Below, piece after piece: positions 10,466 to 40,219 of a stretch of 64,000 bases of DNA (position 1 is its first letter; each line of letters opens with the position of its first letter). Source of the DNA: a virus. Position numbers and translations under genes: made by a program. A model generated the notes under the pieces. It was not told the DNA's origin and made no database searches. It was given only the letters and a program-made list of their open reading frames with translations. The stretch spans positions 1-64,000 of IMG/VR virus record IMGVR_UViG_3300047476_001203; one strand, given 5' to 3'.

Positions 10466-10597
10466 CTATGAAAAGAATGAATATTTTATAATGTAGTAAA
10501 GTATAGTACCACCGGTCCAAAATACTAAACCACCGATACCTACTGCGATAATAAGTGCAATGATTCTTGCTACTTTATCTGTTTTGCTTGAGTCCAT
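10466..10597 (-). CDS. Very small membrane protein
   Basis: 43 residues: MDSSKTDKVARII, then one long hydrophobic helix (IALIIAVGIGGLVFWTGGTI) and a YYIIKYSFFS end. Its start overlaps the 3' end of the SGNH gene upstream by 28 bases. Function unknown. Confidence 0.6.
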   Translation of the reverse strand: MDSSKTDKVARIIALIIAVGIGGLVFWTGGTILYYIIKYSFFS

Positions 10598-11265
10598 ATT
10601 TCTATAATTTTATATAAGTCGTTAGCCAAATCCTTATGTCCGTCCTCTGAATAGTGACCATCCTCCATCACACCCAATGTCTCAATTGTGAGTGTTTCAT
10701 ATTCGTGTAATGGAATCACATTTTCAAAAAAACTAATGATATTTTCGTCATATTTTCTTTGAATATTCATATTCGAAAAATACCAAAATATTGAGAAGAT
10801 ATCTTCACCACAAACCTTTTTTATTATTTTGGTGTAGTTAGAAACCTCCTTATAATATATACTTGAGGAATTACGATTTACACCAATCTCCTCCAAACTT
10901 TTTTCGGACACGAACCTGTTGGGTGATTTACAACCCGCCTGAATCATAACCTTTTCAAACTTGTTATTATCATCCGCAATTCTAAACCTATTAGGATATG
11001 TCCAATTGACTATCACAATGTCACCAGGTCGGATTTGGTCCATCACCTCAATAAAACTATGAAATATTTCATCATTCGAGTTTCCTGCCGATGCCAATAT
11101 CTCTAAATCACATTCCAATTTATCCGATATAATCTCACCATAACACTTCGGTGAATAACCTTTCCAAATGTGGTATCGAACCCTATAATCAATAGGGTCG
11201 TAAAGTTTTTGGTCAAAGTCACTGAACTTCTGACTAAAGGAATCTCCGAATATCCACAGTTTCAT
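10570..11265 (-). CDS. SGNH/GDSL hydrolase-like protein, copy 1
   Basis: 231 residues. Block I GDSFS with the nucleophilic Ser sits at residues 7-11, a G-N-S-N-D segment (SAGNSND) fits block III Asn, and GHYSEDGH near the C terminus fits the Asp/His block. SGNH proteins remove or transfer acyl groups on glycans. It is the last of four head-to-tail related genes with 1-8 base overlaps, and of eight in the window. No signal peptide, so it acts in the cytoplasm or on virion proteins during assembly (inference). Confidence 0.85.
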   Translation of the reverse strand: MKLWIFGDSFSQKFSDFDQKLYDPIDYRVRYHIWKGYSPKCYGEIISDKLECDLEILASAGNSNDEIFHSFIEVMDQIRPGDIVIVNWTYPNRFRIADDNNKFEKVMIQAGCKSPNRFVSEKSLEEIGVNRNSSSIYYKEVSNYTKIIKKVCGEDIFSIFWYFSNMNIQRKYDENIISFFENVIPLHEYETLTIETLGVMEDGHYSEDGHKDLANDLYKIIEIWTQAKQIK

Positions 11266-11870
11266 TATAAAGAATGTATTCTCGTTTTTATTTCATTATA
11301 AAATTTATCTGCAACTATTTCATTTCCAACCTCATCGAACTTATTATCAATTACAGTTGCACCTTTCTCTTCAAAATACTTAACCAAACAAGTTGTTGAT
11401 TCATTACATAAGTAACTTCTTTTTGCTTTAAATGATGGTCTTGCGGGATATATCAACCTATCCTCATCACTTGACCAAAAAAACAAATTATATCTCTTCG
11501 ATTTCGCAAGTTCATCTAAAATATTTTCATAGTAATAAATCTGTTCACACCATTTTTCAGATAACCTATCTCTAACCACATTCTCAATATATGTTGAGTC
11601 AATGTGTTCGTCACCTAAATCATTTGGGCTGTAACAAATAAACTCATCATTGATTGGTGTTCTAAAATTACAAACATTACCCCAACCAATAATAACAATA
11701 TCATCACTATGAATCAAATCACATACACCACAGAAATCATCAAAGATTTGATAGTTGCAAGTTTTATCTTTTGATAAGTTTTTAACTTGGTATCCTAATT
11801 TCTCACCTAATAAAGTTGTCCAACTACTATTACTGAAACCATCACCAAATACCCACATTACTCTAATCAT
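11265..11870 (-). CDS. SGNH-like protein, copy 2, catalytic residues lost
   Basis: 201 residues, clearly homologous to its tandem neighbours (VFGDGFS, DDIVIIGW, LFFWSSD). However block I reads GDGFS, so Gly replaces the nucleophilic Ser, and the C-terminal H-[YF]-G-E-x-G-H block reads KFDEVGN, so the His is gone. It is probably a non-catalytic paralogue, perhaps a partner or scaffold of the active copies. The frame is intact, with no sign of decay other than these substitutions. Confidence 0.83.
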   Translation of the reverse strand: MIRVMWVFGDGFSNSSWTTLLGEKLGYQVKNLSKDKTCNYQIFDDFCGVCDLIHSDDIVIIGWGNVCNFRTPINDEFICYSPNDLGDEHIDSTYIENVVRDRLSEKWCEQIYYYENILDELAKSKRYNLFFWSSDEDRLIYPARPSFKAKRSYLCNESTTCLVKYFEEKGATVIDNKFDEVGNEIVADKFYNEIKTRIHSL

Positions 11871-12613
11871 AATAAACTCTTTTTTATTTTGGTGGAGATT
11901 TCTTTGTAAAAAACTTCCGCCTGAACCCGATGTCCAATTTCACCAAAATGTAAATCGGGTATTTTACCCTTTGTTTCCATTTCAACGGTTTTTGCACCCT
12001 TTTTTCTAATTAGGTGTGCTAATACACCATCAACAGAATCTGAACAAAGGTACTTTTTTTTATTTTTAAATTCTTTTGGTTCATCGTAGATAATTTTACT
12101 ATCACTTGACCAAAAAAATATCTCAAAACCTTTGTGTTTTGAGAGTTCTTCTATTAAATTTTGTCTATCGTAAATTTCTCTTGTATATATTGGATTAGTT
12201 CTCTCAACTAAAAGGAAATCTAACGTCTCCGTTGACATATGGGTTGAGTTGACGTCACTATTTTTTGTGTGGTTTGGGAGTACTGAGATTAATTTTGGTA
12301 GTTGTTTTTCATCATAACTGCTAATCCAAAATCTTGCGAGTTGCGTCCAACCAATTACCACAATGTCACCCTCATTAATCATTTCACAATTGTCACAGAA
12401 CGCACCGAAAATATGGTCATTAGAACTACCTCCCACTCCTTTATTTTCAACCTCCATACCCAACATCTTACCCAATCTATGTGGCCAAGTTTCAGGTAAC
12501 GTTCCACCTAACCAATCTCGATATAACATATAGTTGTTTTTCTCACCATTCATAGAACTCAGTGGATGATATTCTGCGGTGTAACTACAACCAAATGTCC
12601 ATAACTTATTCAT
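11867..12613 (-). CDS. SGNH hydrolase-like protein, copy 3
   Basis: 248 residues. Block I is GCSYTAEY with Ser at residue 10, block III-like GGSSNDHIF, then VVIGWTQLARFW, the FFWSSD strand shared with its neighbours, and a C-terminal DLHFGEIGH block. All catalytic positions appear present. It overlaps both neighbours by a few bases and is the closest paralogue of copy 4. Confidence 0.86.
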   Translation of the reverse strand: MNKLWTFGCSYTAEYHPLSSMNGEKNNYMLYRDWLGGTLPETWPHRLGKMLGMEVENKGVGGSSNDHIFGAFCDNCEMINEGDIVVIGWTQLARFWISSYDEKQLPKLISVLPNHTKNSDVNSTHMSTETLDFLLVERTNPIYTREIYDRQNLIEELSKHKGFEIFFWSSDSKIIYDEPKEFKNKKKYLCSDSVDGVLAHLIRKKGAKTVEMETKGKIPDLHFGEIGHRVQAEVFYKEISTKIKKSLL

Positions 12614-13358
12614 TGTAATATCCGTTTCTATATCTGTTTATGTCTCTTAGAAACATTTCTGACATTACTCTATGACCAACTTCACCATAATGTTCATCAT
12701 CCGGTAGAATTCTATTAGTCTCTTCGTGAAAACTTTGTGCACCATATTCACGGAGAAACTTAGTCATATCCGTATTTGCTTCAGGCACTAAACAATTGTA
12801 TTTGTACTTAAATGAGTTATCTTCTTTGTTGATTATTTGTTTATCTGCCGACCAAAAATATAATTCGAATTGCTTAGCAAGACTTAATTCCTTCATTAAC
12901 TTCATAAAGGAATATATCTCATCACACCAAACAGGGTTAATTCTGTTAACCAATATTTGTTGCATCACTTTTAAATCATATTGTACGTGGCTATGTGCTT
13001 CTGATGGAATAACAGAAACCATTTGATGGTGTCTACCCATATTTTTATTGACAATATCGAATCGTTCTTTTCTCGACCATTCGACAATTACCACATCACC
13101 TTTTTGAATTCTTTGACAGTTTGCGGAAAATCTGTTGAATATTCTGTAGTTAGAAAAACCAGGGTACCCCATATTTTCTTTTTCTAACCCTAATTCTCTT
13201 GCAACAATTGTGGGCCACACATCATTTATATCACCACCTCGGTAATTTCTATATCTGATGTTATTATTTTCAGATTCATCACTTTGACCGGGTTTCAAAT
13301 ATGATGTAAAATCATATTCTGCGGTGAAACTACATCCAAATGTCCACAATTTACTCAT
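12606..13358 (-). CDS. SGNH hydrolase-like protein, copy 4
   Basis: 250 residues. GCSFTAEYD (Ser at residue 10), GYPGFSNYRIF, VVIVEWSRKERF, ELYFWSADK and DDEHYGEVGHR cover the SGNH blocks. It is the promoter-proximal gene of the four-gene tandem. Acts on unknown acyl esters; likely substrates are sugars made by the glycosyltransferases elsewhere in the window. Confidence 0.86.
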   Translation of the reverse strand: MSKLWTFGCSFTAEYDFTSYLKPGQSDESENNNIRYRNYRGGDINDVWPTIVARELGLEKENMGYPGFSNYRIFNRFSANCQRIQKGDVVIVEWSRKERFDIVNKNMGRHHQMVSVIPSEAHSHVQYDLKVMQQILVNRINPVWCDEIYSFMKLMKELSLAKQFELYFWSADKQIINKEDNSFKYKYNCLVPEANTDMTKFLREYGAQSFHEETNRILPDDEHYGEVGHRVMSEMFLRDINRYRNGYYNE

Positions 13359-15092: not shown

Positions 15093-15458
15093 TTATATTC
15101 TTTGGAAAACGTCATCAACGATTGAGTCTGCCAACTCTTTGTAACCCTCTTCTGTTTTATATCTATCATTGAAGGTTTGGATAGAATGAATTGCGGTTGT
15201 GTGGTCTCTACCACTAACCATTTCACCAATACTTTTCAAAGGGTAAGAAAATTCTTTTCTCATTACCGCACAAAATATGTGTCTTGCGTCACATACTTCT
15301 CTTTTTCTTCCTCTTGAAAGAATCTCAGTTACAGTCACACCGCAATGTTCTGCGACGATACTCATAATTTTTTCAGGGGAAATAAGACTTCTTTTGATTC
15401 TCTTCTTTTTAGGTAATAATGTTTGTTTAATACCCGGATAAACGTAAGGACTAATCAT
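15093..15458 (-). CDS. Free-standing DnaA domain IV (origin-binding helix-turn-helix)
   Basis: 121 residues. From residue 27 the protein reads like the C-terminal DNA-binding domain of DnaA: ISPEKIMSIVAEHCGVTVTEILSRGRK, then ARHIFCAVMRKE, then VSGRDHTTAIHSI with the GRDHTTxxH signature that contacts DnaA boxes. The AAA+ ATPase domain is absent. The protein may bind the phage or host origin, either recruiting replication or blocking host initiation. It is transcribed away from the caspase-like gene's promoter on the same strand. Confidence 0.88.
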   Translation of the reverse strand: MISPYVYPGIKQTLLPKKKRIKRSLISPEKIMSIVAEHCGVTVTEILSRGRKREVCDARHIFCAVMRKEFSYPLKSIGEMVSGRDHTTAIHSIQTFNDRYKTEEGYKELADSIVDDVFQRI

Positions 15459-17125: not shown

Positions 17126-17614
17126 TTATTTGATGTTATTTGTTCTATCCCATTTAGCTTTTCTTGCTTCTGGTGATAACATATGACTCTCATCAATTGT
17201 ATGAGGGATTTGAACTCTTACACACGTTTGCGGTAATCTACTATTCATAAAATAATTGTTGATGTAGCCCATCATATTTGCAGAGCCTATTGGGTTCGCG
17301 GAGTGGATATAAATCTGTGGTAGTGGTATGTTTTTATTCATACTCTCAGCAACTAACCACTTACAACAATCATAACCTGTTTTCTCATTAACTATATTGT
17401 CATAGTTTAATGTGTAGTTATTTTTTACGTTTGTATAATATTCAACCATTGACAGTTCACCTAAGTCGTGGTCCAATGATATAACTTCATAGTTCTCTAA
17501 ACCATTCAGTCTTATATGACTAACAAACTCATCATAGTTTCTTACTACTTTCCAATCACCTTCTGTTGGTGTTCTTACATCATCAAGATATAAGTAAATT
17601 TTATTTTTATTCAT
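17126..17614 (-). CDS. Cyclic-phosphate processing receiver-like domain (cREC-like)
   Basis: 162 residues. YLYLDDVRTP (D11, D12), VISLDHDLG (D48-H49-D50), KTGYDCCKWLVAE and YIHSANPIGSANM (H104) follow the order of the receiver-derived cREC family, which comparative work has linked to processing 2',3'-cyclic phosphates at broken RNA ends. Its ATG overlaps the start side of the RNA ligase gene by 8 bases, so they are co-translated, and this supports an RNA-repair role. The family name is from memory; the DHD and HS-N motifs are visible. Confidence 0.82.
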   Translation of the reverse strand: MNKNKIYLYLDDVRTPTEGDWKVVRNYDEFVSHIRLNGLENYEVISLDHDLGELSMVEYYTNVKNNYTLNYDNIVNEKTGYDCCKWLVAESMNKNIPLPQIYIHSANPIGSANMMGYINNYFMNSRLPQTCVRVQIPHTIDESHMLSPEARKAKWDRTNNIK

Positions 17615-18803
17615 CTTTTTTAAATGGTTTTGAATATTTTGGATATAGATTTTTCCAAATCAAATCCGAGTAATCTTTATTATCTAACATTCTAAATAGA
17701 AGTGCCTGCAAATCTAATTTTTGTTCTTTAATTTTTAATGCAGATTCTTTTCTTGTCATTTCAGGTTTAATAATGTTCATAAATGTTAACTGACACATTG
17801 TGTCGGTTATTCGATACATTTCCAAGAACTTACTTTCCTCACCCTTTACCCAATCATAGAATTCATCTGGTACTTTATCCAATATTTCATCGAGTGGTTT
17901 ACCTGCTCTTAGATATTCCCATATGTCACGATTGGATACATTAGTTAAAATTCTATGAAGTCGTTTATACTCTTCTCCTTTGATTTTCATACGAAAACCA
18001 TTCTTGAAACGAACAACATATCCCTCTCTATCCTTTGATATCTCCTCCTTCAACAAATCATAACCTTCTCCCCAAGTTTTATATAACATAACAACACGAA
18101 ATCCAATATTGGAAATCATATTTTGAAATCGAATGTCTTCATCGCTGTTATGAATATCAACTTCATTACCTGATTTTGTTTCAATCATTCCTAACAAAAC
18201 AATATCTTCATAATCATATTCACACACTATTCTATTCTCTTTGTAAATTATCTCAAACAAATATGTGTAACCCTTGTGTAGTCTTTCGAAATCATATCTA
18301 TCTAAAAGTTCTTTTCCTTTAATTGCTTGTGACGATGTAAATGACCCACGAGTTGCCATAATCCATTCACCTTTTATTTTAGGTGTTGGTTCATAATATG
18401 GATTATCAAAATCAGGTAAGTTCTTTGGGTCAAAAAACTTTTCCATACCTGTTTCATAATTGTTATTAAACCATATGTTGTATCTTCTTTCGTCACTCAA
18501 TTCATATTCATAATAAAAAAGAATACCTAATGACCCATCCATTTTTTCATAAACCTCAAAAAATTCGTTTGGTAAATCTTCAGGTTTATGTTCTTCGTAG
18601 TTAAAGAATTTCTTAAATGGTCTTGCAACAATATCACCTTTAGAATTGGTAACCAATCCGCGACATTGAATTGTAACATCATCCCACAACTTTTCATATT
18701 GAACTCTTGGACTATAATTCCAAATAGTTAAATCGAGAGTTGGGTGAGTCTGTTTATGTAACAACCCATCTTTATGATATTTTTCTAATGTCTCTAATTT
18801 CAT
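17607..18803 (-). CDS. RNA ligase, T4 Rnl1-like
   Basis: 398 residues. The nucleotidyltransferase motif I YEKMDGSLG has the AMP-accepting Lys at residue 87; upstream lies QCRGLV, and further motifs EWIMATRGSF, YTYLFEIIY, and MKIKGEEY (motif V) follow in order. T4 Rnl1 is 374 residues, so the length fits. It seals 5'-phosphate and 3'-OH RNA ends, as in repair of tRNAs cut by host anticodon nucleases. Neighbours with end-healing activities overlap at both ends. Confident for the family. Confidence 0.92.
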   Translation of the reverse strand: MKLETLEKYHKDGLLHKQTHPTLDLTIWNYSPRVQYEKLWDDVTIQCRGLVTNSKGDIVARPFKKFFNYEEHKPEDLPNEFFEVYEKMDGSLGILFYYEYELSDERRYNIWFNNNYETGMEKFFDPKNLPDFDNPYYEPTPKIKGEWIMATRGSFTSSQAIKGKELLDRYDFERLHKGYTYLFEIIYKENRIVCEYDYEDIVLLGMIETKSGNEVDIHNSDEDIRFQNMISNIGFRVVMLYKTWGEGYDLLKEEISKDREGYVVRFKNGFRMKIKGEEYKRLHRILTNVSNRDIWEYLRAGKPLDEILDKVPDEFYDWVKGEESKFLEMYRITDTMCQLTFMNIIKPEMTRKESALKIKEQKLDLQALLFRMLDNKDYSDLIWKNLYPKYSKPFKKDE

Positions 18804-19453
18804 CTATCAACGTTTAACATATCATCTGTGTGATGGTCATCAGCACCAAGTTCTGAACCTATTTCTCTTTTCTTCATATCGTTCAATATCTTCTTCAAAT
18901 CATATGGTGCGAACTCAGGGTTACCATCCATACCAACATCCATTCTACGTCCATTACTATACTTTTTATGGTTAGGTAAGTGACAGTGTCCGTGAAGATG
19001 AACACGTCCTTTACGTAATCCATTCCACGACGATATTGGATAGTGACACATCTCTATTGTTTCGCCTTGATATGAGAATTGTTCAAACCAATTCACGCTT
19101 AGAAATTTGTTACGAATATCATCTCGATTTCTGTCAATGTGATGGTCGTGATTACCTAAAACTAAATGAATATTCTTACAAATTAATCTGTTGTAAAATT
19201 CTTCTATTTGTTCAAATCCACCAAACGACCAGTCACCCAAATGTATTAACACATCATCTTGACCAACCAATTCATTAATGTTATTTACAATTGCAGAATT
19301 CATTTTATCGATAGTTTCGAAATCTCTAGTTTGTGCTATCGGTATTGAACCATCAGGCATTCTCCATTTGGTAGTTCCTCGACATATATTACTATGATTG
19401 TAATGTGTGTCGGATGTTATCCAAACCTTTATGTGATTATCTATCTTTATCAT
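18800..19453 (-). CDS. Calcineurin-like metallophosphoesterase
   Basis: 217 residues. SDTHYNHSN, HLGDWSFGG, LGNHDHH, CHYPISSW and HLHGHCH cover the metal-binding blocks of the phage/bacterial 'YfcE-like' metallophosphoesterases. It overlaps the RNA ligase start by 4 bases. In this setting it may remove phosphate or cyclic phosphate from RNA ends, which the kinase nearby cannot do because it lacks a phosphatase domain. The substrate is inference; the fold is clear. Confidence 0.88.
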   Translation of the reverse strand: MIKIDNHIKVWITSDTHYNHSNICRGTTKWRMPDGSIPIAQTRDFETIDKMNSAIVNNINELVGQDDVLIHLGDWSFGGFEQIEEFYNRLICKNIHLVLGNHDHHIDRNRDDIRNKFLSVNWFEQFSYQGETIEMCHYPISSWNGLRKGRVHLHGHCHLPNHKKYSNGRRMDVGMDGNPEFAPYDLKKILNDMKKREIGSELGADDHHTDDMLNVDR

Positions 19454-19457
19454 CTTA

Positions 19458-19958
19458 CTAACAAAAATCTGTTGATGTACTTACTCGAAGTCCATCGATT
19501 ATTAAATCGTCATATTTTTCATTATCAGTCCAAAATGACCCGTGACCTTTTAGTCTTTGTTCTTTACGATATTCTTTATTAACAACCAAACCATCAGGTT
19601 CACCCCAATTAAGTGCCATCACAATAAACTCATTTACATCTAACTCTTCTCCATATTCATCAACAACACGACCATCTCTAATGAATTTAAGTAGTTCTTC
19701 TTTATTGGAGTAGTATTTGTTATCGTGAAAATTCCAACAGAATTTCCAACCACTACTTCGTTTACCTAAGTGAATATTGGTACCATTAATGAAAGTGTCC
19801 CAAGGTGATTCTGAACCCCATTGGTCATCAACAGCGACTCTAAATCCACATTCAATGTTAGATGGTGATATGTCTAAATTGGTGATACTATGAATTAGTT
19901 TAATCTTTTTGTTTTCCATCTCTTCCACAGTTGGAATTCGATAATAATTTGTTCCCAT
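19458..19958 (-). CDS. Conserved MGTNYY-type phage protein, unknown function
   Basis: 166 residues beginning MGTNYYRIPTVEEM and containing NIHLGKRSSGWKFCWN. This N terminus and the 'HLGKRS-GW' strand mark an uncharacterised family common in phages and bacteria. No catalytic motif is known to me. It is the first gene of the repair operon, right behind a promoter-like element. Confidence 0.85.
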   Translation of the reverse strand: MGTNYYRIPTVEEMENKKIKLIHSITNLDISPSNIECGFRVAVDDQWGSESPWDTFINGTNIHLGKRSSGWKFCWNFHDNKYYSNKEELLKFIRDGRVVDEYGEELDVNEFIVMALNWGEPDGLVVNKEYRKEQRLKGHGSFWTDNEKYDDLIIDGLRVSTSTDFC

Positions 19959-19978
19959 TGTTAGTAAGTTCTTTTACG

Positions 19979-20009
19979 TAAAAATACATATTATTATTGA
20001 TATTACAAA
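19979..20009 (-). promoter_or_regulatory. Bacteroidota-like promoter (TTTG-N19-TATTTTTA)
   Basis: Minus strand TTTG, 19-base spacer, TATTTTTA (TAnnTTTG with the last base changed). It lies between the terminator and the first gene of the RNA-repair run, so that run probably starts its own transcript. Confidence 0.5.
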
Positions 20010-20017
20010 ATATCAAA

Positions 20018-20045
20018 AAAAAATCCCCGAAAAATCGGGGATTAA
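20018..20045 (-). terminator. Intrinsic terminator, 8-bp stem
   Basis: ATCCCCGA, a 4-base A loop (plus-strand view) and TCGGGGAT form a perfect hairpin. On the minus strand it is followed by a run of nine T. It directly follows the kinase gene and separates that transcript from the RNA-repair operon downstream. Confidence 0.88.
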
Positions 20046-20046
20046 A

Positions 20047-20481
20047 TTATAACTTAACGTTGAATCGGTCTTTCATTTGTTTGACTTTTTCATCCGGTAC
20101 CCCGTGTACATTACTACTTCCGTGACGATTCTCAACAACAAGAGTATGGACACGATATTTGTATCTTTCCGCAATTTCAAAATACTTCTCCATTTCCCAC
20201 TCCTCGGTAAATGTATTTGCAACAACGATTCTACTGAATTCATTCTTCATTCTCTCAGCACATTTCAAAAGACAATCATTATGAGCCTCTTTCAATTTTG
20301 AACCGTCGAAATTGTAAATTCCTTTATCAGACATAAAGAAGTTATCCGCAGATAAAACATCGGGATTATCACCTCTCACACATCTCAAAATAACCTCACC
20401 TACAGTAGTTTTCCCTGAACCAGGTACTCCTCGTAGTAAGATTAAATCACCAATATATTCTTTATCTTCCATATTGTACAT
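20047..20481 (-). CDS. P-loop polynucleotide kinase-like protein
   Basis: 144 residues. Walker A is GVPGSGKTT at residues 18-26, followed by LSADNFF (the DxF/Asp that activates the substrate hydroxyl in T4 Pnk-type kinases) and VVANTFTEEWEM. It matches the kinase half of Pnkp and the AAA_33 family, but has no phosphatase half. It likely puts phosphate on 5' RNA or DNA ends before ligation. A -7-like TATCTTTG lies 16 bases before the ATG, and the gene ends at a strong terminator, so it may be its own unit. Confidence 0.87.
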   Translation of the reverse strand: MYNMEDKEYIGDLILLRGVPGSGKTTVGEVILRCVRGDNPDVLSADNFFMSDKGIYNFDGSKLKEAHNDCLLKCAERMKNEFSRIVVANTFTEEWEMEKYFEIAERYKYRVHTLVVENRHGSSNVHGVPDEKVKQMKDRFNVKL

Positions 20482-38086: not shown

Positions 38087-39223
38087 TTAGTTACTTAGTG
38101 GTGCCTTTATTGGTGGATGTGATTGATAGTTTTCCAATATCACATCTTGCCCTCCAAATGAAAATATACCATCTCTAACGTGCACAGTTGGTAAATCAAA
38201 TGGTTCTCTTTTTATTTGTTCTTTTGCTTGTTCTATATGATTCTTATATAAATGTACATCACCTAAATTCCCTATCAATTCATCAGGTACCATATTCATT
38301 TCATCCGCAATCATTGTTAACAATAAACCATATGATGCGATATTGAATGGTAATCCTAAGAATGTATCTACCGAACGTTGGTTCCACATTAATGAGATGG
38401 CTCTTTTAGGTATGTTATATACTTCCAGTTCTTCACTCAATCCTCCACCGAATGGAACTATGTCATCTACCATCAATTGAAACTTATCGTCACCGACTTT
38501 CTTCTTTAATAAATCCCACCTCTCTTCACCGGTTAGCTCTCTTGTATAAACTTGAAATCCATAATGACAAGGTGGTAAAACCATTTGACCTAATTCACTT
38601 ACATTCCAAGCACTAACCATCAATCTTCTACTATCTGGATTTGTTTTAAGTTGTAATATTAGATTTGAGATTTGGTCAATTGATGTAGATATTTCAGGAT
38701 AATGTGTGTTACCATCATACCATTCATTCTCTTGGTATTTCCAACTTCTCCATTGCTTACCATAGATTGGCCCTAACTCACCCCACTTCTTAGCAAACTC
38801 ATCGTCGGTTTTAATTTTGTTAATGAACTCTGACTGTGTTAATGGTGTTAATTTATCTGAATCACTAAACCAAACTTCCATATGTGGTTGCATCCCCATT
38901 ATATCACCACACTTATATCCATCAATAACATCATTAATTTTTTTAGTGTAGTTCTTATATGCGTCACCATCCCAAATATGACAATTATTATCTACAAGAT
39001 ATTTGATGTTAGTACTTCCACTTAAGAACCAAATCAATTCGGTTACCATAGTTTTCCAAGCCATCTTTTTAGTGGTGAGTAATGGAAACCCTTGTGACAT
39101 CCTATGTCTTATTTGACGACCGAATACTGATATAGTACCAGTGCCTGTTCTATCGGTTTTAACAACACCATTATCTAAAATGTCTTGTAATAATTCTTGA
39201 TACTTACTATCTAGTGTGTTCAT
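38087..39223 (-). CDS. thyA: Thymidylate synthase (ThyA-type), enlarged
   Basis: 378 residues, against about 264 in most bacteria. The core is intact: DRTGTGT near the start, the catalytic Cys at residue 219 in LPPCHYGFQVY, RRLMVSAWN before it, and NQRSVDTFLGLPFNIASY after. Extra length is in a loop between residues 95 and 145 and in a C-terminal stretch near 230-275, as seen in some phage and Bacteroidota enzymes. It makes dTMP from dUMP with methylenetetrahydrofolate for phage DNA synthesis. Confidence 0.94.
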   Translation of the reverse strand: MNTLDSKYQELLQDILDNGVVKTDRTGTGTISVFGRQIRHRMSQGFPLLTTKKMAWKTMVTELIWFLSGSTNIKYLVDNNCHIWDGDAYKNYTKKINDVIDGYKCGDIMGMQPHMEVWFSDSDKLTPLTQSEFINKIKTDDEFAKKWGELGPIYGKQWRSWKYQENEWYDGNTHYPEISTSIDQISNLILQLKTNPDSRRLMVSAWNVSELGQMVLPPCHYGFQVYTRELTGEERWDLLKKKVGDDKFQLMVDDIVPFGGGLSEELEVYNIPKRAISLMWNQRSVDTFLGLPFNIASYGLLLTMIADEMNMVPDELIGNLGDVHLYKNHIEQAKEQIKREPFDLPTVHVRDGIFSFGGQDVILENYQSHPPIKAPLSN

Positions 39224-39578
39224 AAATGTTTAATCTTTTTTCATTTTCAATTTTATCCTGATTGGTGTATCTTTCTTTGTACGATATAATTCTATGAAAT
39301 TCTTTATATGCGGACGGGTGAGTTTCTTTTATTCTATCTAAACCATATTCATATTCAAAAAGTACATCTTCATATCTCCGTTCTTTTTTATCAAAACCAT
39401 CCTCTAGTTGTTCTATTTGCCCCTGTAAATTAACTATTTCACTTCGTAATGAATCTTCATTACAAGTAACATTAGGTTGAGGAGTTGTTTCGTTTGGTTT
39501 ATTTAATGCAACCATTAATAATACCAATATTATTACAGTACCAATAAAAAGTCTTATAGTTATGTTGTCACTTTTCAT
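39207..39578 (-). CDS. Membrane-anchored coiled-coil protein
   Basis: 123 residues. One N-terminal helix (about 8-25), then a polar linker and a coiled-coil-like part (SLRSEIVNLQGQIEQLEDGF, RRYEDVLFEYEYGLD). Topology is like an inner spanin or a structural tether, but no outer partner is seen. It overlaps ThyA by 17 bases. Confidence 0.76.
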   Translation of the reverse strand: MKSDNITIRLFIGTVIILVLLMVALNKPNETTPQPNVTCNEDSLRSEIVNLQGQIEQLEDGFDKKERRYEDVLFEYEYGLDRIKETHPSAYKEFHRIISYKERYTNQDKIENEKRLNIYEHTR

Positions 39579-40219
39579 ATCAATTTATCTTTTAATAATT
39601 CAAAAAATATATTAGTTAAAGTTTTATGTGCATTCTCACCATAATGATTATCGGTGAGAATATTACCACTCTCCATTTTTATTGTTTCAAGTTTTAACAA
39701 CTTGTGTACATTTAAATCAGTATTGTCATCAAACGGTGTCCAATGAATTATTTTATTTTTCTTCATTGTGTGATTAATAAAATGAATCCAATTGTTAACT
39801 TCTTTATAATAAATTAGATTATCCCTATTAACAAATATCTCATCAATCGTATTTCTTGACATATCGGTGTGGTGAGTGATGTGATAATCTGTAACGGTTC
39901 CTGGTACAAATTTCACCCAATCGCCGTCTTTAGCGGCAAGTCTAAATCTAATCACACTCGACCAACCAATAATAACAATATCATTTTCTTTAATCCTATG
40001 TACGTTATTACACAAGGTCTCAAAAATGGAATAATTATCATATCCACCAACCCCTAAGTTCTCACATTCAATCCCCAATTGTTCACCTAAAAAATCACAA
40101 TAGACTTTTGGTAAATAACCTTTGTAATCGATATAACTTTTACCCCAATCAACTTTTGGGTCATATCTTTGAGTGTAGCTATCACCAAAACACCAAAGTT
40201 TATTTTTTGTAGTATGCAT
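39575..40219 (-). CDS. SGNH hydrolase-like protein, copy 5
   Basis: 214 residues. FGDSYTQRYD, GVGGYDNYSIFE, IVIIGWSSV and NHYGENAHK give blocks I, III and the His block. It is most similar to copies 1, 3 and 4 of the tandem at 10.6-13.4 kb, so the cluster was probably dispersed. Overlaps the next gene by 20 bases. Confidence 0.85.
   Translation of the reverse strand: MHTTKNKLWCFGDSYTQRYDPKVDWGKSYIDYKGYLPKVYCDFLGEQLGIECENLGVGGYDNYSIFETLCNNVHRIKENDIVIIGWSSVIRFRLAAKDGDWVKFVPGTVTDYHITHHTDMSRNTIDEIFVNRDNLIYYKEVNNWIHFINHTMKKNKIIHWTPFDDNTDLNVHKLLKLETIKMESGNILTDNHYGENAHKTLTNIFFELLKDKLI

Follow-up and report, generated by a model that had tools for sequence, protein, structure and literature searches.

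A predicted RNA end-healing and sealing gene cluster in a large tailed phage, and an optional in-frame module in its RNA ligase

Gene content of the locus

The 115-kb viral record IMGVR_UViG_3300047476_001203 derives from a large tailed virus of bacteria, a member of a phage group that probably infects Bacteroidota. Positions 1 to 64,000 of the record were analysed and are hereafter called the window. On its minus strand, at 17126-20481, lies a cluster encoding, in the order of transcription, a P-loop polynucleotide-kinase-like protein (KIN, 144 residues, 20047-20481), a conserved 166-residue protein (g166, 19458-19958), a calcineurin-like metallophosphoesterase (MPE, 217 residues, 18800-19453), an Rnl1-type ATP-dependent RNA ligase (LIG, 398 residues, 17607-18803), and a receiver-derived protein predicted to process cyclic phosphates (cREC, 162 residues, 17126-17614). 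A sequence-only reading of this DNA had proposed an RNA-repair gene set made up of the kinase, phosphoesterase, ligase, and cREC. All four are present on the minus strand where it had placed them, and the overlaps it gave are exact (8 bp for cREC and ligase, 4 bp for ligase and phosphoesterase); it had overlooked g166 between kinase and phosphoesterase, as well as an in-frame insert of 45 amino acids inside the otherwise correctly identified ligase. The intrinsic terminator that it described is real, being AATCCCCGATTTTTCGGGGATT-T7 at 20043-20022 on the minus strand, with a 9-bp stem, a 4-nt loop, and a T run directly 3' of the kinase gene. Because the kinase is the gene upstream of this terminator and ends at it, g166, MPE, ligase, and cREC form a unit of their own, and the kinase is probably transcribed separately.

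The assignment of the individual proteins rests on profile searches and on the conservation of catalytic residues, the latter measured on 43 to 62 non-redundant homologues per family. The ligase matched PF09511 (61 bits) and PHROG 562 (E 2.6e-67), a family named RNA ligase and tail fibre attachment catalyst. Its residues K87 (the nucleotidyl lysine), D89, G90, E184, E260, K273, and K275, which make up motifs I, III, IV, and V, are invariant among the homologues, and its structure model (pLDDT 88) returned T4 Rnl1 as the top Foldseek match over the full chain (E 9e-17). The protein scored 64.8 bits against the T4 RnlA equivalog model TIGR02308, far below the cut-off of 242.25 bits, and it is thus regarded as Rnl1-like rather than as the same enzyme as T4 RnlA. 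An apparent second ligase in three loci (L077, L079, and L081) proved to be thymidylate synthase (ThyA), drawn in via a common insert, and the ligase set was rebuilt without these sequences.

For the kinase, matches were obtained to AAA_33 (46.4 bits), to PHROG 2071 (E 2e-36), and, more weakly, to the polynucleotide kinase family PHROG 505 (E 3.6e-6), so that its earlier placement among polynucleotide kinases is borne out. The P-loop Lys24 and the Asp46 of the SAD motif, found in 100% of 62 non-redundant homologues, provide the P-loop lysine and catalytic aspartate of the T4 Pnkp type (K15 and D35). In phage I29, a homologue carries the annotation NEDD4-binding protein 2 domain, and the SADxFF and HGVP motifs resemble those of N4BP2-type kinases; by its motifs, the protein is N4BP2-like and not a T4 Pnkp.

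The phosphoesterase matched PF00149 (38.9 bits) and PHROG 547 (E 1.7e-44). Its binuclear metal site is complete, the DxH, GD, GNHD, H, and GHxH motifs being invariant in 43 non-redundant homologues (D15, H17, D74, N101, H102, H137, H156, and H158). The g166 protein matched no Pfam family, and its core motif HLGKRSxGWKFCWNFH is almost invariant across homologues. MPE lies near g166 in 16 of the 34 non-redundant g166 loci, and two genomes whose cluster is without MPE (G013 and G014) hold it together with g166 elsewhere, a check limited by most contigs being fragments. Judged from this linkage, g166 belongs with the phosphoesterase.

The 162-residue protein, which had been read as a cREC domain, was indeed placed in that family (PF20274, cut-off 27 bits) by a score of 84.3 bits, with D11, D12, D48, D50, and S105 conserved in all 55 non-redundant homologues. 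The family was named by Iyer et al. (2021, PMC7824862), who predicted it to act on cyclic phosphates and noted its operonic linkage to RNA ligases. The Flavobacterium phages immuto 3-5A and 2-6A, isolated on one Flavobacterium host, are 95-99% identical around the cREC site; the former has the gene (L081, 5989-6396) and the latter is without it (L536, 22750-23608). The cluster offers clean tests of cREC, this natural pair among them.

Linkage of the genes and the predicted repair of RNA

The association of these genes is conserved in other phages, in several arrangements. A ligase-anchored comparison covered 80 loci, 43 of them non-redundant, of which 41 hold the kinase and 27 show the commonest order, KIN-LIG-cREC-p110. 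The last of these, p110, is a family of about 110 residues whose gene immediately follows that of cREC or of the ligase in most ClpC-type phages (L005, 9693-10022, and 66 other loci), for which no Pfam or PHROG family was matched. It had been lumped with cREC by single-linkage clustering and is no second cREC-like gene, its sequences forming an unrelated family; p110 is possibly a further repair component. When the comparison was anchored on cREC, KIN, LIG, or MPE was found within 6 kb in 25 of 33 non-redundant loci, and anchoring on MPE placed KIN, LIG, or cREC nearby in 19 of 26. The arrangements include MPE-KIN-LIG, MPE-cREC-KIN-LIG, g166-MPE-cREC, and cREC-MPE-LIG, a variety that speaks for functional linkage rather than for shared ancestry alone. 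The carriers are phages, as 15 of the 22 contigs tested hold a large terminase.

Characterised phages show the same association. Kinase, ligase, and phosphoesterase are adjacent or a few genes apart in Vibrio phage Pontus, the E. coli phages phi92 and JES2013, and Pseudomonas phage PaP1, where they are mostly annotated only loosely. The window kinase, phosphoesterase, and ligase also matched, in succession, residues 4-109, 195-250, and 428-517 of the fused 737-residue phage family PHROG 8238, the phosphoesterase part being weak (E 0.005). As a side observation, the kinase/ligase pair of Pontus, phi92, and PaP1 (L098, L116, and L117) adjoins genes for ribose-phosphate pyrophosphokinase and nicotinamide/nicotinate phosphoribosyltransferase, a proximity that may link RNA repair with NAD resynthesis.

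Strong family assignments, intact catalytic residues, and a linkage that is conserved despite reshuffling of the genes support the RNA-repair interpretation already offered by the sequence-only reading, and the cluster is interpreted, with a probability of roughly 0.8, as a phage kit for RNA end healing and sealing that most likely mends RNA cut by host defences. In the predicted scheme, a host endoribonuclease such as an anticodon nuclease would cut its substrate, presumably tRNA, leaving one end with a 2',3'-cyclic phosphate and the other with a 5'-OH. With cREC assisting or acting first, the metallophosphoesterase would open the cyclic phosphate and remove the phosphate to yield a 3'-OH, the N4BP2-like kinase would phosphorylate the 5'-OH, and the Rnl1-type ligase would then seal the ends via a K87-AMP intermediate, the presumed purpose of the whole being counter-defence.

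Several points weigh against this interpretation. No anticodon nuclease emerged as a target of the kit, and a search of the 115-kb record turned up no tRNA genes. Attachment of tail fibres is a further activity of T4 Rnl1, and the ligase could accordingly have a second role. MPE is absent from the cluster in most relatives, and a 251-kb contig (G004) carries kinase and ligase without cREC and without a close MPE homologue. Given that many relatives are without MPE in the cluster and some without cREC, the 3'-end step is not uniform. Moreover, cREC is described as experimentally uncharacterised in PMC9503650.

One alternative is that cREC and the phosphoesterase destroy small signalling nucleotides produced by host defences, such as ADP-ribose cyclic phosphate or cyclic nucleotides, and lie close to ligase and kinase because all of them belong to a common counter-defence region. 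Iyer et al. group cREC with sirtuin, Nudix, and ADP-ribose enzymes; the g166-MPE-cREC arrangement is found with neither ligase nor kinase nearby; and ligase and kinase are retained without cREC in 7 of 43 representatives with p110. Set against this, most loci have cREC immediately next to ligase and kinase, with an 8-bp overlap in the window, and the Pfam scan of the window neighbours revealed no recognisable sirtuin, Macro, KptA, or Nudix protein. This explanation is judged unlikely. Far less probable still is a ligase devoted mainly to tail-fibre attachment in the manner of T4 gp63, with unrelated neighbours: the name of PHROG 562 speaks for it, and both the company that the ligase keeps with kinase, cREC, and MPE and the conservation of its full nucleotidyltransferase motif set speak against it.

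An optional in-frame module in the ligase and thymidylate synthase

An RNA-repair kit of this kind has already been predicted in print; the new part of the locus is the insert in the ligase, which is also the more interesting one. In the ligase alignment, residues ~99-143 are wholly missing from many close relatives. This insert, I1 (18375-18509, minus strand, with a boundary uncertain by one or two codons), appears as a clean 135-bp gap in alignments to close relatives whose flanks are 82-93% identical. Close pairs of filled and empty genes show a clean difference of 135 bp for I1 or of 120 bp for I4, a rare and different 40-residue sequence at the same site, while the flanks are 82-97% identical. 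Across all ligases the spacing at this site is exactly 12, 52, or 57 residues (0, 40, or 45 extra), with nothing in between. The ligase scan was biased in its sampling, one of its six peptide patterns lying within the insert, and the frequency of the insert was for this reason taken from the cREC-anchored set, where it amounts to 23 of 58. In the ligase model, the insert forms a helix at the tip of a β-hairpin after motif I, the nucleotidyl lysine motif.

Counting only well-supported branches of a ligase tree built without the insert columns, the insert appears or disappears at least 11 times. The parsimony count of 15 changes is close to the 17.9 obtained with random labels, and the insert is hence hardly tied to descent. 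In all 275 insert-bearing pairs, similarity is higher in the insert than in the remainder of the ligase (85% versus 63% of amino acids). Its codons are 95-96% identical at positions 1 and 2 and only 70% at position 3, indicating that it is conserved as a translated peptide. A palindromic element was rejected, as no consistent RNA hairpin was found (fold z-scores of -3.2, 0.06, 0.11, and -0.86 for four copies). An intein or intron was likewise rejected: the 45 residues are open in frame, there was no Pfam hit and no Rfam hit in the window at 10-30 kb, and the conservation of amino acids over synonymous sites implies that the insert stays translated. No known domain was found in the insert, and its sequence alone had no match among named phages. 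As a degenerate DNA pattern, the I1 core matched 95 viral stretches, whereas the genomes of 84,980 prokaryote species gave no exact-pattern match. No description of such a module turned up in searches of the open literature, which does not in itself prove that none exists.

The same module recurs in thymidylate synthase, where it can occupy either of two sites, and close to the C-terminus of small proteins of 110-251 residues. On a nucleotide tree, I1 copies cluster mostly by host site (5 changes, the least possible being 3), and moves between proteins are therefore few or old. The window ThyA (38087-39223; PF00303, 317.7 bits) carries at its site A another insert, I2 (38402-38542, minus strand, residues 228-274), which belongs to a class with LTxxER...IPxR ends and is also found in the ThyA of Flavobacterium phage immuto. 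Sites A and B of the ThyA proteins in these phages hold many other modules of 20 to 51 residues with such ends, and a site-A segment of this kind is also present in the ThyA of two phages of ~640 kb and of a Lak phage. A second module is common to ThyA site C and the small proteins; a segment of about 60 residues at site C (in the ThyA of L374) is shared with the N-terminal part of a small protein whose C-terminal part is I1 (L435 and L439), and this protein looks assembled from ThyA variable modules. The structure model of ThyA was poor (pLDDT 59) and was not used.

As a pattern in the sequences, the exchangeable in-frame module is real, and it is most likely a replaceable surface element of the ligase, gained and lost frequently, probably by recombination between filled and empty alleles. 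The insert might instead be an old lineage-specific loop that has been lost many times by precise deletion rather than exchanged, a view favoured by the grouping of I1 copies mostly by host site. Opposed to this are the 11 or more presence/absence changes, hardly clustered on the ligase tree, the extra lengths of exactly 0, 40, or 45 residues, the occupation of the same site by the second sequence I4, and the recurrence of the same module both in small proteins and at two ThyA sites. On these four points, recombination between filled and empty alleles is the simpler account, and repeated loss of an ancestral loop is considered rather improbable.

A broader proposal, put forward tentatively and at somewhat less than even odds, is that exchangeable peptide modules of 20-51 residues, many with LTxxER...IPxR ends, form a pool in the large phages of this group. 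These modules would enter loops of unrelated enzymes (the ligase, and ThyA at several sites) and small proteins in frame, be retained as translated elements of the protein surface, and be swapped on and off between relatives. If true, this would amount to a cassette system at the protein level, of a kind not described for phages. The presence of the module in both ligase and ThyA raises the question of what phages gain by exchanging short in-frame peptides within important enzymes, candidate reasons being escape from an inhibitor or a homing endonuclease, altered substrate choice, and docking to a partner. In L016 (1275-2048), and also in L063 and L075, the ligase is directly followed by a GIY-YIG homing-endonuclease-like gene, located between it and cREC, and evasion of such an endonuclease is one possible reason for the exchange.

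Elsewhere in the window, a 121-residue protein (15093-15458) has the C-terminal DNA-binding domain of DnaA (PF08299, 72 bits) in stand-alone form, and at least five tandem and dispersed paralogues of ~200-250 residues, one of them weakly DUF6071-like, lie at 10570-13358 and 39575-40219.

Comparison with known systems

The closest precedents are the neighbourhoods of Escherichia phage V5 and Proteus phage Mydo, in which a T4-like ligase, cREC, a nucleotide kinase, and an occasional calcineurin-like phosphoesterase are coupled to a sirtuin, with MazG (Iyer et al. 2022, PMC9503650). The window cluster likewise unites an Rnl1-like ligase, cREC, a kinase, and a calcineurin-like phosphoesterase in one neighbourhood, with the same proposed role of clearing cyclic phosphates and sealing. 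It differs in having no recognised sirtuin or MazG alongside (a Pfam scan confined to the neighbouring window proteins found no Sir2 family member), in the pairing of MPE with g166, in the optional 45-residue module of the ligase, and in belonging to a different, probably Bacteroidota-infecting phage group. The cluster carries predicted phage RNA repair, in its split form, into an abundant group of aquatic phages.

With the tRNA repair system of T4, Pnkp (pseT) and Rnl1, the cluster shares a kinase, an Rnl1-type ligase, and the predicted end chemistry. The T4 kinase is fused to a HAD phosphatase, whereas the 3'-end work is assigned here to a calcineurin-like enzyme and cREC; the window kinase is closer to N4BP2-like proteins than to T4 Pnkp, and the ligase scores below the equivalog threshold for RnlA (64.8 of 242 bits). 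Bacterial Pnkp (kinase-metallophosphoesterase-ligase, accompanied by Hen1; Pnkp1-Rnl-Hen1 complex, PMC4411300) and the fused PHROG 8238 unite these three classes of enzyme. In the window they are encoded by separate genes, the ligase is of the Rnl1 type, and cREC is added; no Hen1 methyltransferase was recognised among the neighbouring window proteins, to which the scan was confined. As for the insert, I1 resembles the Rickettsia palindromic elements in being short, in frame, located in unrelated proteins, and present or absent between close relatives, and departs from them in having no conserved hairpin, in its strong amino-acid conservation, and in its confinement to phages.

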